Position numbers and translations under genes: made by a program. The notes beneath the pieces are model-generated. The model made no database searches. It had not been told where the DNA came from and was given only the letters and a program-made list of their open reading frames with translations. Shown in pieces: positions 23,120 to 63,074 of a DNA stretch of 64,000 nucleotides (position 1 is the first letter of the stretch; every line of letters starts with the position of its first letter). Location of the stretch: contig JABLTG010000088.1 of the NCBI GenBank assembly GCA_016618085.1, positions 19,302 to 83,301 on the forward strand, read 5' to 3'. The stretch is from Neovahlkampfia damariscottae. Lineage: Eukaryota; Heterolobosea; Selenaionea; Neovahlkampfiida; Neovahlkampfiidae.

Positions 23120-23342
23120 TTATAAAGGTTTTTCTGGAAGTTGTGATGGAAGAATATTGTGTTTTTTCTTTATTGCAACTCTATGTTTACTAAATTTATC
23201 TTCTGGAGTAAATCTAAATAATTAAGAAAAAAAAGAAAAAAAAATACCTAGCTGGATGGCCACTTCTTGTTGTTGATTTACAATCTGTGCATGTTTCGTG
23301 GATAGTGTATCTATCACAAGTGTTACAAAAACGAAGAAGCAT
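23120..23342 (-). CDS. NOP10: H/ACA snoRNP protein NOP10
   Basis: Two exons, 23342-23248 and 23213-23120, are joined across a 34-nt intron and give 62 residues, the normal NOP10 length. The N-terminus LRFCNTCDRYTIHETC forms the zinc-ribbon-like half. HPARFTPEDKFSKHRVAIK is the family signature (HPARFSPDDKYSRHR in animals). NOP10 joins dyskerin, GAR1 and NHP2 in H/ACA particles that guide pseudouridylation of rRNA and snRNA. The gene is too short for long-frame detection and becomes clear only after splicing. It shares a promoter region of 81 bp with mitochondrial Ffh. Confidence 0.9.
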
Positions 23343-23423: not shown

Positions 23424-25208
23424 ATGTTGTTGAAGAATTTTTTGAAAACCTCAACAAAATTTTTGACAAAAAATAATAAATTTGTTAACTTGAATCAATA
23501 CATCAATTTTCAAAATAAATATCAAAATTTTAATGTCAGATGTTACTCAACAATGTTTTCAAAATTATCCACTGGAATGAAAGATGCTTTTGGTTCATTA
23601 TCAGGTAGAACAACTTTAACAAAACAAGATGTTGAAAATTCTATTGAAGAAGTTAAACGTTCTCTAATTGACGCAGACGTTGCTCTTCCAGTTGTAAAAA
23701 AATTCATATCTGAAGTTCAAGAAGAAGCAATTGGATCAAAAGTAAAAGACTTACCAAAACTTGATGCCTTTGAAGAAATTGTGAAAAAAAAATTGACAAA
23801 ATTACTTGGAGATGATATTCCAGATTTGAATTTACCAAAACATCAAGAAATAGAAGTTATTGATGATGATATAAAGAGAATTGAAAAGAGAATACCCATG
23901 TCTTCTATTTTAGTCACTGGTATTCAAGGTGCTGGTAAAACAACAACTTCAGCAAAGTTAGCAAATAGACTAAAAAATCAAAAAATTTCAGTTATGTTAG
24001 TTTCTTTAGATACACGTAAGATTATGTGCATTACTCATTTCCTTTTAGACAGACCTGCTGCACAAGAACAATTAGAGATTTTAGCCAACAAAGCAAATAT
24101 TTTATCATTGCCAATTGTAGAAGGTGAAACACCAATAGAAATATCAAAAAGAGCTTTACAATTAGCAAAATTGAGTGACATAGAAATAATTATATTTGAT
24201 TCTGCAGGTAAAAAAGATATTATTTTTTTTGTGTTAAAACAATTCTCATAGGTAGAATGCATGTTGATGATGAATTAATGAATGAACTACAATCCGTTAA
24301 AGAAATTATAAAACCTTGCGAAACCCTTTTAGTTGCTGATTCTATGCTGGGTAATGACTCTGTAAATATTTCAAAAGAATTCAAAGAAAAAGTTGATATA
24401 ACAGGTATTATAATTACAAGATTAGACGGTGATACAAAAGGTGGTTCAACTATTTCCATGAAAGAAGTCACTGTAAAAAAAAAAAAAAATTAATTTTTTT
24501 TTTTCAAAGGGTGTTCCTATCAAATTTGTTGGTACTGGTGAAAATTTAGAAGATTTAGATAAATTCATTCCAGAAGGTATGGCTTCAAGAATTTTAGGTT
24601 CTACTGATATACTCAGTTTAAAACAAAAAACTCAAGAAATTATGGAAGCATCAGATTTAAATGAAACAAAGGTTAAAAAATTAGGTAAATTTTAATTGGA
24701 TTTTAAATTTCCATTTTTTATTAGAAAAGAAAATGAAAAGTGGAAACTTTGATTTTGAAATTTATACAGAACAATTAAATTCTTTAAAAAAAGCGGGAAA
24801 TCTTCAAAATTTTGCTTCTTTCATTCCAGGACTTGCAAATATGCAAACAGGTCAAATGAATACTGACGTATGTTAATTATATTTCTTATTCATTATTTTT
24901 AGTTTATAGATGTTCATTTGAGGTTCATAAACTTGATGACAGAAAAAGAGAAAAGAAATCCAAATATGTTCAAACAAATGGCTTCTTGTAGAATTGGTTT
25001 GGCAAAAAGAGCAAAAGTTCCTGTTGTTGAAGTAAATAAATTTCTGAAAATGTTCGAAAAATTAAAAGAAACATTTTCAAAATTTGGAGATTTGACAGAT
25101 CCTCAAAACGATTTTACAAAAATGATTCAAAACAATCCAAAGCAGTTCATGAAAACAGTTAAAGTAAAACCAGGACATCAACCAACTTTATTTGGAAGAA
25201 GAAAATAA
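23424..25208 (+). CDS. mtFfh: Mitochondrial SRP54/Ffh GTPase
   Basis: Six exons: 23424-24015, 24049-24207, 24252-24472, 24510-24684, 24725-24867 and 24903-25208, with introns of 33, 36-44, 37, 40 and 35 nt. The protein has 531 residues. The first 45 residues (MLLKNFLKTSTKFLTKNNKF and YQNFNVRCYSTMFS) are Lys/Thr/Asn-rich without acidic residues, as in a mitochondrial presequence. The bacterial-type NG domain follows: LSGRTTLTKQDVENSIEEVK, G1 GIQGAGKTT, DTHRPAAQEQL, DSAGRMHVDDELM, TRLDGDTKGGS and GTGENLEDLDKF. The M domain has MTEKEKRNPNMF and CRIGLAKRAKVPVVEVNKFL, placed like the RNA-binding helices of Ffh. Cytosolic SRP54 has a different M domain and no presequence. It may serve insertion of mitochondrion-made membrane proteins. 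Confidence 0.88.
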
Positions 25209-25265: not shown

Positions 25266-25849
25266 TTATTTTGTATGAAGATAAGTGTTTGGTCTTGAAG
25301 CACTGAAAGCTGTTCTGTATTTCTTTTCTCTTTTTGCAATTTTTGTTAATACTGGGAATTTCAAGTTTGGTTTGATAAATTGCATTGTATTGTTTCTTCT
25401 AACTTTGTCATCTTCAACTTCAGCAGTTTTGATAATGTGGATTGTTGAGAAACGAGCTCTATGACGTGAAGCCATTTCGAGGTACATTTGTTGAACAGCA
25501 CCTGTAAGTTGAGTATCTCTATATTCCTTGTACATATTGTGAATACCTGATCTACTGACATAACGGAGCCAAATTCCAAAATTTTTAACTTGGTCAATTG
25601 GTTCTTCAACTTCTTCAATTGCAACAATTTGTCCATTAGCTTTTTTAACTCTTTTTAAAGAGGATAAGAAATACCAACAACGACTTTTTGCAACAACTGT
25701 GTTAGGTGCGAAAATTGTCATTCTGTAAACTGGAGGTGATGGAACTTTTTTTGTTGGAATGAGTCTAGCTACAACAACATAATGTTTAAGTGGATTATTT
25801 GTGCTTTGTGAAACCATCTAAATGTTGGTAAGGAATTTGTAAGACTTAC
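25266..25849 (-). CDS. RPL18A: 60S ribosomal protein eL20 (RPL18a), with a 5' UTR intron
   Basis: The coding part is 25817-25266, 183 residues without introns. HYVVVARLIPTKKVPSPPVY RMTIFAPNTVVAKSRCWYF is the hallmark of eL20. GIWLRYVSRSGIHNMYKEYR and MASRHRARFSTIHIIKTAEV complete the family pattern. Immediately before the ATG there is TTTAG, and 32 bases earlier GTAAGT (25818-25849). A short intron therefore appears to end exactly at the start codon and lies in the 5' leader. The promoter box ATTGGTC is further up, at 25881-25887, with no ATG between it and the intron. Confidence 0.9.
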
Positions 25850-54809: not shown

Positions 54810-54880
54810 GCCCCAATAGTTTAGTGGTCGAATATCTCGTTGTGGCCGAGAAGATGCAAGTTCGATTCTTGCTTGGGGCA
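54810..54880 (+). tRNA. tRNA-His (GTG), copy 1
   Basis: 71 nt. Acceptor stem GCCCCAA pairs with TTGGGGC, with discriminator A. The anticodon arm TCTCG-TTGTGGC-CGAGA shows anticodon GTG. The T arm is GCAAG-TTCGATT-CTTGC. The base before the gene is A, so G-1 must be added after transcription. A T-run follows within a few bases, as for RNA polymerase III termination. An identical copy lies at 56273. Confidence 0.95.
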
Positions 54881-55172
54881 CTTATTTTTTTTAATTCCAT
54901 TTTGTTTTTGTGAAGTTTTTGATCAAACTATGCCACAGCTGGTGATCAGAAATTGGAACTCTTTTTTCATCTGTTTCGGTTGTGAAACATTCATGGGGAT
55001 GTTTGAGTTTTGAAATTATAAACTTCTTTTGAAGTATTTTTCTCATATTTTTTTTGATCAGAATACTATCATGGAGTACAGTAACATTGATTGTTTGATT
55101 ACAAGAAAAAGGAGATTTTGAGAAATGAAAATGATTGGTTCGGCTAAATCCAAAACTCGGGTAAACAAAAAC

Positions 55173-56156
55173 ATGAAAAGTTTAGATGAGATGGAGCACT
55201 ACAGAGTTTTGGATAACAAGTGCGCTTACTACAAATATTTAGCGAATACAGGAAAGAATTATCATTTACATATAGTTGAAGAAGAAGAAGAAGAGGAAGA
55301 ATTTACAATTTTTGCTTCTTTTTCGTTTGAACCTTCAACCTGGAATTCTCCATTTAATTTTTGTTTTATTCAAAATTTGAATGAAAATCAAGTCGTTTTA
55401 TCAAAAATAATTGCTCATGCAAAAAAAAAAGTTCTACCGTTACCTTTTCATTCCTTTTCAAAAAGAGATAATGAAACTTTGATAAATAATCATTTTTTAC
55501 CACAAGAAAAATTTACACACATGATTTATCACATACCTAATTTTGTTAAATCAAAATTACTACCTGATAATTACATGTACGGAGAAATTACATCAACACA
55601 TCGTCGAGAAGAAAATTGGACACGATGGCTTGACACATTAACATCTTCATACTCCAATTATAACAGATCCTCAATAAAAAAAGTACTCTCAAAAGCTATA
55701 TGTGGAAAGGATTATCCTCTGAGACATTTTTATATTCAAGAAAAAGATACATCTGAAATTATTGCTGTTGTATCACTTTTTTGTGAAGGTGGTGGTTCAT
55801 GTGGAATTTATAATATTGCAACTTTGGAAAATTATCGAAATCAAAAATTTGGAACTAAATTGTTGGAATACGTTCATTTTGATATTGCAAGAGATCAGCT
55901 TAATTGTTCATTTTCACTTGTTGAATCAAATTCAAGATCAATTTCCTACTTTCAAAAATTTGGATTTAAAACTATTGTCACTTCAACTACTTGGTTGAGA
56001 TTGAAAGAAGCTTCTTTTCCGGTGAGAAATATTGGGACTTTGGTTTTGATGACCAGAAATGGTGAAATTTGGATGTATGTATTGCTGGTTTTAGTATTTT
56101 TTGTATTCATTGCAGTGGTGAAAATGAGTCATGTGAGCGAAAGAATAAAATTTTAG
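55173..56156 (+). CDS. GNAT-family N-acetyltransferase with C-terminal membrane anchor
   Basis: About 327 residues from ATG 55173; the frame runs back to ATG 55125. The earlier ATG precedes a GATTGGTTCGG box at about 55133, so the later ATG is favoured by analogy to other genes. The GNAT core is near residues 205-260: IYNIATLENYRNQKFGTKLL is motif A, with the acetyl-CoA loop Q/NxKxG, and SFSLVESNSRSISYFQKFGF is motif B. The C-terminus has a membrane span (MYVLLVLVFFVFIAVVKM). The substrate is unknown. It lies between the two tRNA-His copies. Confidence 0.65.
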   Translation: MKSLDEMEHYRVLDNKCAYYKYLANTGKNYHLHIVEEEEEEEEFTIFASFSFEPSTWNSPFNFCFIQNLNENQVVLSKIIAHAKKKVLPLPFHSFSKRDNETLINNHFLPQEKFTHMIYHIPNFVKSKLLPDNYMYGEITSTHRREENWTRWLDTLTSSYSNYNRSSIKKVLSKAICGKDYPLRHFYIQEKDTSEIIAVVSLFCEGGGSCGIYNIATLENYRNQKFGTKLLEYVHFDIARDQLNCSFSLVESNSRSISYFQKFGFKTIVTSTTWLRLKEASFPVRNIGTLVLMTRNGEIWMYVLLVLVFFVFIAVVKMSHVSERIKF

Positions 56157-56272: not shown

Positions 56273-56343
56273 GCCCCAATAGTTTAGTGGTCGAATATCT
56301 CGTTGTGGCCGAGAAGATGCAAGTTCGATTCTTGCTTGGGGCA
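56273..56343 (+). tRNA. tRNA-His (GTG), copy 2
   Basis: Identical over all 71 bases to the gene at 54810, including the ATCAA just before and a T-rich run after it. The two copies lie about 1.46 kb apart, flanking a GNAT acetyltransferase gene. Identity suggests a recent local duplication or gene conversion. Confidence 0.95.
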
Positions 56344-56740
56344 CTCATTTTTTTACCTATTTTTTCTTGGACAATCCAATTTTAAATCACCATTTTGTTT
56401 TATTGCTTGAAAGAGGAATTTGGTAAAAAAGAAATATCTTTATATAAAAGAAACTCTGACAGACCCAGTTTGACTTTTGTTTGAGTTTTTGTTATTTTCT
56501 TTTTCTTTTCCTTTGGTTTCCGTGGTTTTAATTTTGGTGTTGCTGTTCTTATTTCTTTATTTGTTTTTGAGTAAAAGCGACACATGGCATTTTATCATCA
56601 TCCACTTGTTTTGCTAAATTTTTTCTTCTTTGTTCTAATAGTTTCTTTTCTTTGGGGATGTCATTCAAATATAAAGCAAAGACATTTTTTTAAAATACAG
56701 CAGAATCGTCCAATCAACTGCCACTTGTTTACAATTCAAA
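56344..56740. other. Intergenic region with an unresolved minus-strand reading frame
   Basis: On the minus strand a frame from about 56680 to 56550 reads LEQRRKNLAKQVDDDK then MPCVAFTQKQIKK, and a second frame from ATG 56585 continues with Lys-rich KPRKPKEKKKKI. No ATG in frame or canonical intron joins these to a start near the ATTGGAC box at about 56708. Either a frameshift or an unusual splice is present, or the coding look is accidental. The plus-strand URB2-like gene uses the same box in the opposite sense. Confidence 0.35.
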
Positions 56741-61586: not shown

Positions 61587-63074
61587 ATGGAAGAAGAAGA
61601 TGAAAAAGTTTGAGGAAAAAAATAAAATTAATTTGAATAGAATGAATGTTTAATTTGTTTAAACAACTGGAAATCAACAGGAGAACATCGTGTAGTTTCT
61701 TTAAAATGTGGACATATTTTTGGAAAAAGTTGTATTGAATTTTGGTTACAAAGCAACTGTAGTTGTCCAATTTGTAAAGAAAAAGCAGATATTTTAGATA
61801 TAAGAAACCTTTATCTTGGTACATCAACTTATAAAACTTCAATAAAAAGAATAAAACAAAGGAGTAAAACGGCCATTGAAACTATTGAAAAAAAGTTAAA
61901 ACTTGAAAGAAAAAAGAAAAAAGAGATAGATATGAAATATAAAAATATAAAAGAAAAATTAGTAGAAATGACTAATAAATCATTAAATATCACAAATGAG
62001 ACTTTGAAATCTTTCATTGAAGATAATTTTAAAACTGAAAATTTTTTCAAATTGGTGCAAGCTATGGATGTTGATTTTGTTGGAAATTATATTTGTTTTT
62101 TGAATGATCCTCTCGAAGTTGCGATTGCACATTCTCAAAAACCGTTGATTGTAAAATTGGATGTTTCCAATGATGTACAAGAACAATTGTTATTGAATAG
62201 TGGGAATTTAAAAATTGTTGAAATGAAATTCAATTTTTCAAAGAACTTATTGCTTTGTATTACAGAAGAGAATATATTATACTTTATAACGCCAACATTA
62301 AAAATTGTAAAAAAAATGACAATAGAACACAGTGTGAACTCACTTTCAATAAATGAATTCAATGATGATATAGTATCAATAGGTACCGTTGATGGATATA
62401 TACTTCCTGTTAATATCAATAAATTCAAATATTTGGAGAAAATCAAATTGAATGATCGAGCACGAGTAAGTTCAATTAAATATTTGGATAAACAACGAAT
62501 TTTGATTTCTCAAGGAAAATGTGGGTGTTTCATTATTGATGATAATAAGAAACTCAAGAAATTGAATTTTGGAATATCAGAAGGAGAGGATTTTTTTAAA
62601 GTTGATTTTGAAAAACATTCCAAAAATTGTCTGGTCTCTACAGGGAATATCGATCAGAATTTCAGAAAGTCAGTGGAACATATACTTTTTAAATCTGACA
62701 AAATTGATAGTTTCACTAGAATTTCTCAAAATGCTTTCATTTCTGAGGACAATGAAAGACCAACTCTGTTGCAAAGTTTAGGTATCGATTATCGTTCAAT
62801 GAAATCTCCATACACATTTTTTTCAACAGAATCAGATGAAAATAATGATGATGATATTATTTCAGTGCAGCCAATGTCATCCAAAACGTATTTAGTTTAC
62901 TCTGAAAAGAACAAAGTTCAATTCAAAAATGTCGAAAATCAACAAATTGAAATGATGGAAAATTTTCACACATCTATCCAAGATATTCAACATTTAAAAC
63001 ATTCACTAGGTTTATACATTGGTATATTAACAAAAGATGAATTTTGTCTGTATTTGTTGGAAATGGTGGAGTAA
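61587..63074 (+). CDS. RING/WD-repeat ubiquitin ligase, RFWD3-like
   Basis: Exons 61587-61607 and 61641-63074 are joined across a 33-nt intron and give 484 residues. The RING-type domain starts immediately after the intron: CLICLNNWKSTGEHRVVSLK CGHIFGKSCIEFWLQ then CPICKEKADI. A coiled coil (IETIEKKLKLERKKKKEI) follows, then WD-like beta repeats (VGNYICFLNDPLEVAIAH; VSSIKYLDKQRILISQGKCG). This order is that of RFWD3, an E3 for RPA at stalled replication forks. The WD part is short of seven clear blades. CCACCAACC and CCAAC-like boxes lie about 25 bases upstream of the ATG. Confidence 0.8.

Follow-up and report, generated by a model that had tools for sequence, protein, structure and literature searches.

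A probable mitochondrial Ffh with a degenerate SRP-RNA-binding motif is encoded in the nuclear genome of Neovahlkampfia damariscottae

A mitochondrial SRP consisting of the bacterial-type proteins mtFfh and mtFtsY is known from Heterolobosea, Hemimastigophora, Alveida, and Goniomonas (Pyrih et al. 2021, PMC8321541). Mitochondrial localisation was shown for the Naegleria gruberi proteins expressed in Trypanosoma, and the mechanism proposed in the same paper is one in which mtFfh, FtsY, and Oxa1 act without an SRP RNA (PMC8321541). This paper was the sole match in our literature search for mtFfh and, judged by title among the matches listed, the only one from 2021 on that treats mitochondrial SRP. 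The genome of N. damariscottae was used in PMC8321541 as well as in PMC8134430; if the assembly analysed here is the one used in the former, the gene described below may already be listed in the supplementary table of that paper.

We analysed a window of 64,000 nucleotides of N. damariscottae DNA, positions 19302-83301 of contig C294 in an assembly of 20.44 Mb and 307 contigs. A preliminary description of this window had proposed a mitochondrial bacterial-type SRP54. This identification is supported by the alphaproteobacterial placement of the protein in a tree and by an FtsY gene in the same genome; the idea itself is not new, since a mitochondrial SRP has already been published (PMC8321541). 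The gene is a good additional example of something rare but already known and does not represent a new system. It shares with the published mtSRP, as that paper presents it, an alphaproteobacterial affinity of Ffh, an N-terminal extension, introns, an FtsY partner, a mutated RNA motif, the presence of Oxa1, no bacterial SRP RNA found, and no MAP67 seen, the last as reported for Discoba (PMC8321541). Comparison with the published system, whose sequences were not aligned by name, demonstrated no difference, and nothing in our analysis departs from the published mechanism. The locus adds one more genome with an mtFfh and mtFtsY pair, in which the cytosolic SRP54 and 7SL RNA provide an internal control against which the loss of RNA contacts is clear. 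It is also consistent with the idea that a bacterial route for targeting membrane proteins was retained in the ancestral mitochondrion.

The gene occupies positions 23424-25208 on the forward strand, the coordinates first assigned to it, and consists of six exons and five introns of 33-44 nucleotides encoding 531 amino acids and a stop codon (Table 1). All five tiny introns seen earlier run from GT to AG and splice to one open frame, which contains each of the motifs originally listed (GIQGAGKTT, DTHRPAAQEQL, DSAGRM, TRLDGDTKGGS, and CRIGLAKRAKVPVVEVNKFL). An open frame is preserved by eight combinations of the splice sites that were tried. The last 488 residues of the chosen model are identical to an independent one, EukProt gene7598-11921_t (P0001), which begins at Met44 and thus lacks the N-terminal extension. 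In the same genome, the cytosolic SRP54 gene has four introns of 36-44 nucleotides and the FtsY gene has two, of 32 and 33 nucleotides, so introns of this size class are normal for the organism. The G+C content of the window is 23-32% per 2 kb. Downstream lies the gene for the cytosolic ribosomal protein eL20, which marks the contig as nuclear and eukaryotic, and mtFfh is thus a nuclear gene with spliceosomal introns amid eukaryotic genes. On the upstream side, a divergent gene on the reverse strand (about 23130-23342), Nop10-like by eye and with a small intron, starts about 80 bp from the start of mtFfh.

Table 1. Features of the mtFfh gene and its downstream neighbour (positions in the window)
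Feature	Position	Strand	Remarks
Exon 1	23424..24015	+	Presequence, N domain, start of G domain; matches EukProt model from Met44
Putative mitochondrial presequence, residues 1-43	23424..23552	+	7 K/R, no D/E
R-C-Y-S-T, end of extension	23538-23552	+	Possible processing site after Tyr41
P-loop GIQGAGKTT	23919..23945	+	In spliced gene model
Intron 1	24016..24048	+	33 nt, GT-AG
Exon 2	24049..24207	+	From inside H of HRPAAQEQL to inside G of DSAG
Intron 2	24208..24251	+	44 nt, GT-AG
Exon 3	24252..24472	+	From RMHVDD to beyond TRLDGDTKGGS
Intron 3	24473..24509	+	37 nt, GT-AG
Exon 4	24510..24684	+	End of G domain, linker
Intron 4	24685..24724	+	40 nt, GT-AG
Exon 5	24725..24867	+	First part of M domain; PF02978 at C294:44046-44156, E 0.003, under cut-off
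Intron 5	24868..24902	+	35 nt, GT-AG
Exon 6	24903..25208	+	Remaining M domain, stop; PF02978 at C294:44225-44374, E 4e-5, over cut-off
Degenerate SRP-RNA-binding motif MASCRIGLAKRAK	24978..25016	+	Two-residue insertion, GSG replaced by RAK
eL20/L18A, cytosolic ribosomal protein	25266..25817	-	PF01775, E 1.4e-19; downstream of mtFfh

The putative presequence ends in R-C-Y-S-T, which we take to resemble the R-x-Y processing motif and which sits directly before the start point of bacterial Ffh. Three of four eukaryote-like relatives of the protein (P0002-P0005) also have N-terminal extensions. Motifs in the corresponding place read R-N-Y-H-T in P0004, R-F-Y-A-A in P0005, and only F-H-T in P0003; P0002 is without this region. 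A stretch of 47 open codons with no D/E and at least seven K/R, thresholds chosen after seeing the sequence, arises by chance at about 2.5e-4 (60,005 random draws at local composition), and 212 of the 127,714 six-frame stretches in the window are comparable. Thus, the presequence of about 45 residues that had been proposed is favoured by composition and by the processing-like motif, but its amphipathicity is borderline (equalled in 106 of 2000 shuffles) and the EukProt model starts after it. Since that model is without the presequence, an automated localisation call made on it could miss mtFfh. Import of the protein into mitochondria is suggested by its sequence.

All three Ffh domains (N, G, and M) and the GTPase motifs are found in the protein, and the full Ffh layout reported at the outset is therefore present. 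The NCBIfam ffh model scores best (403 bits, compared with 221 for SRP54_euk and 209 for ftsY), yet falls below its curated cut-off of 473.2; the four nearest eukaryote-like relatives are likewise under this cut-off, at 342, 416, 408, and 409. Comparison with solved structures gave 280 bits for Bacillus subtilis Ffh, 220 bits for the plastid SRP54 NG domain, and 146 bits for mammalian SRP54. A structure predicted for residues 44-531 from an alignment of 11 sequences (mean pLDDT 76, pTM 0.62; the linker, finger-loop region, and C-terminus are weakly modelled) is closest to B. subtilis Ffh. A search for relatives of the M domain gave 14 matches among 164 candidates, namely the mtFfh gene and 13 others at 33-39% or lower identity; Helicovermis was among the latter, and P0002-P0005 were not recovered. 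The M domain had been called bacterial-like, which is correct for the fold but not for the RNA-binding motif. Thus, the protein shares with bacterial Ffh the NG GTPase and M domain, the fold, and the motifs, and differs from it in the presequence-like extension, the nuclear intron-bearing gene, and the loss of the Arg398 and G-x-G contacts.

We identified five gene loci in the assembly with a PF00448 search: mtFfh on C294, the cytosolic SRP54 on C307, FtsY on C250, and two others on C15 and C256. The cytosolic SRP54 has mammalian SRP54 as its best solved match (568 bits), and the gene on C15 is SR-alpha-like by eye. The locus on C256 (L004 997-1908, forward strand) encodes a degenerate SRP GTPase (PF00448 E 1.2e-10 on the ORF) that, as judged by eye, has lost its second and third GTPase motifs; it looks like an inactive SR-alpha/FtsY-like paralogue.

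A mitochondrial FtsY had been named as a partner to look for, and a bacterial-type FtsY is indeed encoded on C250 (L002 1474-2456, reverse strand). The predicted protein of 305 amino acids is identical to EukProt gene5206-8818_t and exceeds the NCBIfam ftsY cut-off (268.6 versus 260.7). In a tree of 25 rows it forms a 100/100 clade with four other proteins, the nearest of which is 81% identical over a fragment. It reads DLTRAAA at a site occupied by DTFRAGA or DTFRAAA in the bacterial FtsY rows shown. Its N-terminus is very short (MFSFLKK...), as in P0135 and P0136; the predicted protein has no long presequence, and its N-terminal amphipathicity is ordinary, being reached in 1246 of 2000 shuffles.

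Oxa1/YidC (on C247, E 1.9e-17), bL27 (E 1.2e-23), and a phage-type RNA polymerase (E 8.9e-155) occur together with mtFfh and FtsY in this genome, and translation in the organelle is likely because these three are present. A six-frame PF02978 search for MAP67 or a second M-domain protein matched only the cytosolic SRP54 and mtFfh genes. This search has weak power for MAP67, since its link to the M domain was established by profile-profile methods (PMC8321541). Two loci for FeFe-hydrogenase (L012 and L013, on C169 and C242) suggest some anaerobic capacity and hydrogen metabolism.

We hold with high confidence that the gene encodes a nuclear mtFfh, an alphaproteobacterial heirloom of the mitochondrion that would be imported by its presequence and serve a route through FtsY and Oxa1 without an RNA. 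In this mechanism, the gene would descend from the alphaproteobacterium that gave rise to mitochondria and would now reside in the nucleus. The protein would be made in the cytosol and imported, losing a presequence of some 41 residues, and would act in the matrix without SRP RNA, the mitochondrial genome presumably encoding none. Mitoribosome products would be bound by its M domain through their hydrophobic signal sequences or first transmembrane segments, while its NG domain would pair with the mtFtsY from C250, both in the GTP-bound form. Joint GTP hydrolysis would then free the ribosome at the inner membrane, and the chain would be handed over to Oxa1 for insertion. The protein very probably works inside the mitochondrion, and its likeliest role would be to bring mitoribosomes engaged in membrane-protein synthesis to FtsY and Oxa1.

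A different role is conceivable in which mtFfh acts mainly post-translationally, taking membrane proteins encoded in the nucleus from the matrix to Oxa1 much as chloroplast SRP54 does with light-harvesting proteins. Such a role is left open in the account of Pyrih et al. (PMC8321541), and the loss of the RNA parallels plastid SRP, where the M domain can mimic the effect of the RNA on complex formation (PMC5115805). The N. damariscottae protein is also like the seed-plant cpSRP54 in being presumably organellar and RNA-less, but the two differ in ancestry, a joint clade being rejected. However, the presence of bL27 and of a phage-type RNA polymerase suggests that the mitochondrial genome is expressed and that a cotranslational cargo probably exists, and we regard a mainly post-translational role as unlikely.

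The preferred mechanism dispenses with SRP RNA, and the M domain bears directly on this point. We compared the RNA-binding motif in a MAFFT alignment of 57 rows, the plastid row being omitted since it has no M domain. In E. coli Ffh, the residues presumably in contact with SRP RNA are Ser397, Arg398, Arg401, Gly405, Ser406, and Gly407. Arg398, Arg401, Gly405, and Gly407 are present in all 50 bacteria. Among the five mtFfh proteins, Arg398 and Gly405 are replaced in every one and Gly407 in four, while Arg401 is retained in all. At the six positions, the N. damariscottae mtFfh reads M-A-R-R-A-K, whereas the cytosolic SRP54 of the same genome reads S-R-R-G-S-G, with the GSG intact. The motif is also longer in mtFfh (13 residues in 5/5) than in bacteria (11 in 50/50), and this two-residue insertion, found in all five mtFfh proteins and in 0/50 bacterial Ffh, is a possible family marker. 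In our reading, an alternative placement of the gap would alter the assignments of Ser397 and Arg401 and not the loss of G-x-G. Mutated RNA motifs in mtFfh have been reported by Pyrih et al.; we found no mention of the insertion in their account of the motif (PMC8321541).

Searches of the assembly with the bacterial small and large SRP RNA models gave no match at E values up to 10, with 52 of 142 candidates scored for the small model and 17 of 17 for the large. In 14 control genomes, the same models found matches in 13 and 11, which exceeded the cut-off in 9 and 3. The 7SL RNA that belongs with the cytosolic SRP54 was detected on C245, with the protist model at E 4.9e-11 (60 bits against a gathering score of 65) and, over its full length, with the metazoan model at E 2.2e-15 (65 bits against 70). 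Neither cox1 nor a 16-base universal SSU rRNA motif, with at most one mismatch, was matched in the assembly. Mitochondrial DNA and rDNA thus seem to be absent from it, and the search for a bacterial SRP RNA covered the nuclear assembly only. In Naegleria, rDNA is carried on a plasmid (PMC12482156).

One could therefore suppose that mtFfh still functions as a ribonucleoprotein as in bacteria, with an SRP RNA that is mitochondrially encoded or too diverged for the models. Room for such an RNA is left by the mitochondrial DNA not found in the assembly searched, by the fraction of candidates scored with the small model, and by the universally kept Arg401. We nevertheless judge it very improbable: contacts invariant in bacteria are replaced, two residues are inserted in the motif, and Pyrih et al. 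report that no bacteria-like SRP RNA gene was detected in mtFfh-bearing species (PMC8321541). More speculatively, the remodelled motif, with its insertion and the change from G-S-G to R-A-K, might be a gained basic patch that contacts the mitoribosome or FtsY directly and replaces the lost SRP RNA in speeding the encounter between Ffh and FtsY, a mitochondrial parallel to plastids. We put this forward as a tentative idea that is rather doubtful at present.

To place the protein, we built a tree of 58 whole proteins, rather than NG domains alone, comprising the N. damariscottae mtFfh, P0002-P0005, 45 bacterial loci, P0006, P0018, P0122, the cytosolic SRP54 of the genome, and four solved chains. 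P0002-P0005 are eukaryote-like by sequence, and no published mtFfh is in the alignment by name, which makes the tie to the published mtFfh clade an indirect one. A scan of bacterial and archaeal genomes had matched at least 588 stretches; the first 27 among the matches listed are, by title, alphaproteobacteria or unspecified Proteobacteria. The best 80 of 586 relatives were kept, 58 of them alphaproteobacteria by title and none a cyanobacterium, and from these the 45 loci were picked by hand for spread. Of the 45, 34 are alphaproteobacteria or, for three of them, titled just Proteobacteria. Sampling was thus steered by similarity to the query, with cyanobacteria left out and plastids represented by a single row of the NG domain only. 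In addition, P0005 forms a long branch within mtFfh, and several rows, including the N. damariscottae protein, are compositionally biased.

Support of 100/100 unites the five mtFfh proteins in a clade, and this clade joins the alphaproteobacteria with 100/99, a value that stays the same after removal of the two cytosolic rows. A comparison with alphaproteobacterial, chloroplast, and cytosolic sequences had been proposed as a check, and this result supports the identification. The mtFfh clade lies inside or beside alphaproteobacterial Ffh, the alphaproteobacteria alone being supported by 42/21. AU tests rejected the union of mtFfh with the plastid row (p 0.0009), with three gammaproteobacteria (p 0.0012), and with ten Firmicutes (p 0.0003). 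On this tree and on the motif evidence we set aside identity with plastid SRP54, which does not group with mtFfh in a sample of one plastid sequence, NG domain only, and no cyanobacteria.

Cytosolic SRP54 belongs to the same superfamily, and a grouping with it had been raised as a check on the identification. In the best tree, cytosolic SRP54 and mtFfh are apart with full support, but forcing mtFfh into one clade with the two cytosolic rows costs 10 log units and is not rejected at 5% (p 0.098). We think that this p value reflects a weak test affected by the long outgroup branch (1.57), since the genome has a separate cytosolic SRP54 and uniting the mtFfh of N. damariscottae alone with it is rejected at p 1.8e-33. 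With the caveat of the forced clade, identity with cytosolic SRP54 is set aside on the tree and on the motif evidence, the cytosolic protein having its own gene with the RNA motif intact, and the genome also carrying a 7SL RNA. Alphaproteobacterial affinity alone would also be compatible with contamination or with a recent gene transfer from a bacterium in place of a mitochondrial heirloom, but five spliceosomal introns and the neighbouring eL20 gene reject contamination, and the clade and two-residue insertion held in common with four eukaryote-like proteins, three of them N-terminally extended, leave this origin scarcely credible.

Elsewhere in the window, two tRNA-His genes with the same anticodon and on the same strand lie 1.4 kb apart (54810-54881 and 56273-56344), with an ORF between them (55122-56153). 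A single open frame on the forward strand at 61641-63071 encodes a RING finger and, after it, WD40 repeats that are matched weakly, below their cut-offs.
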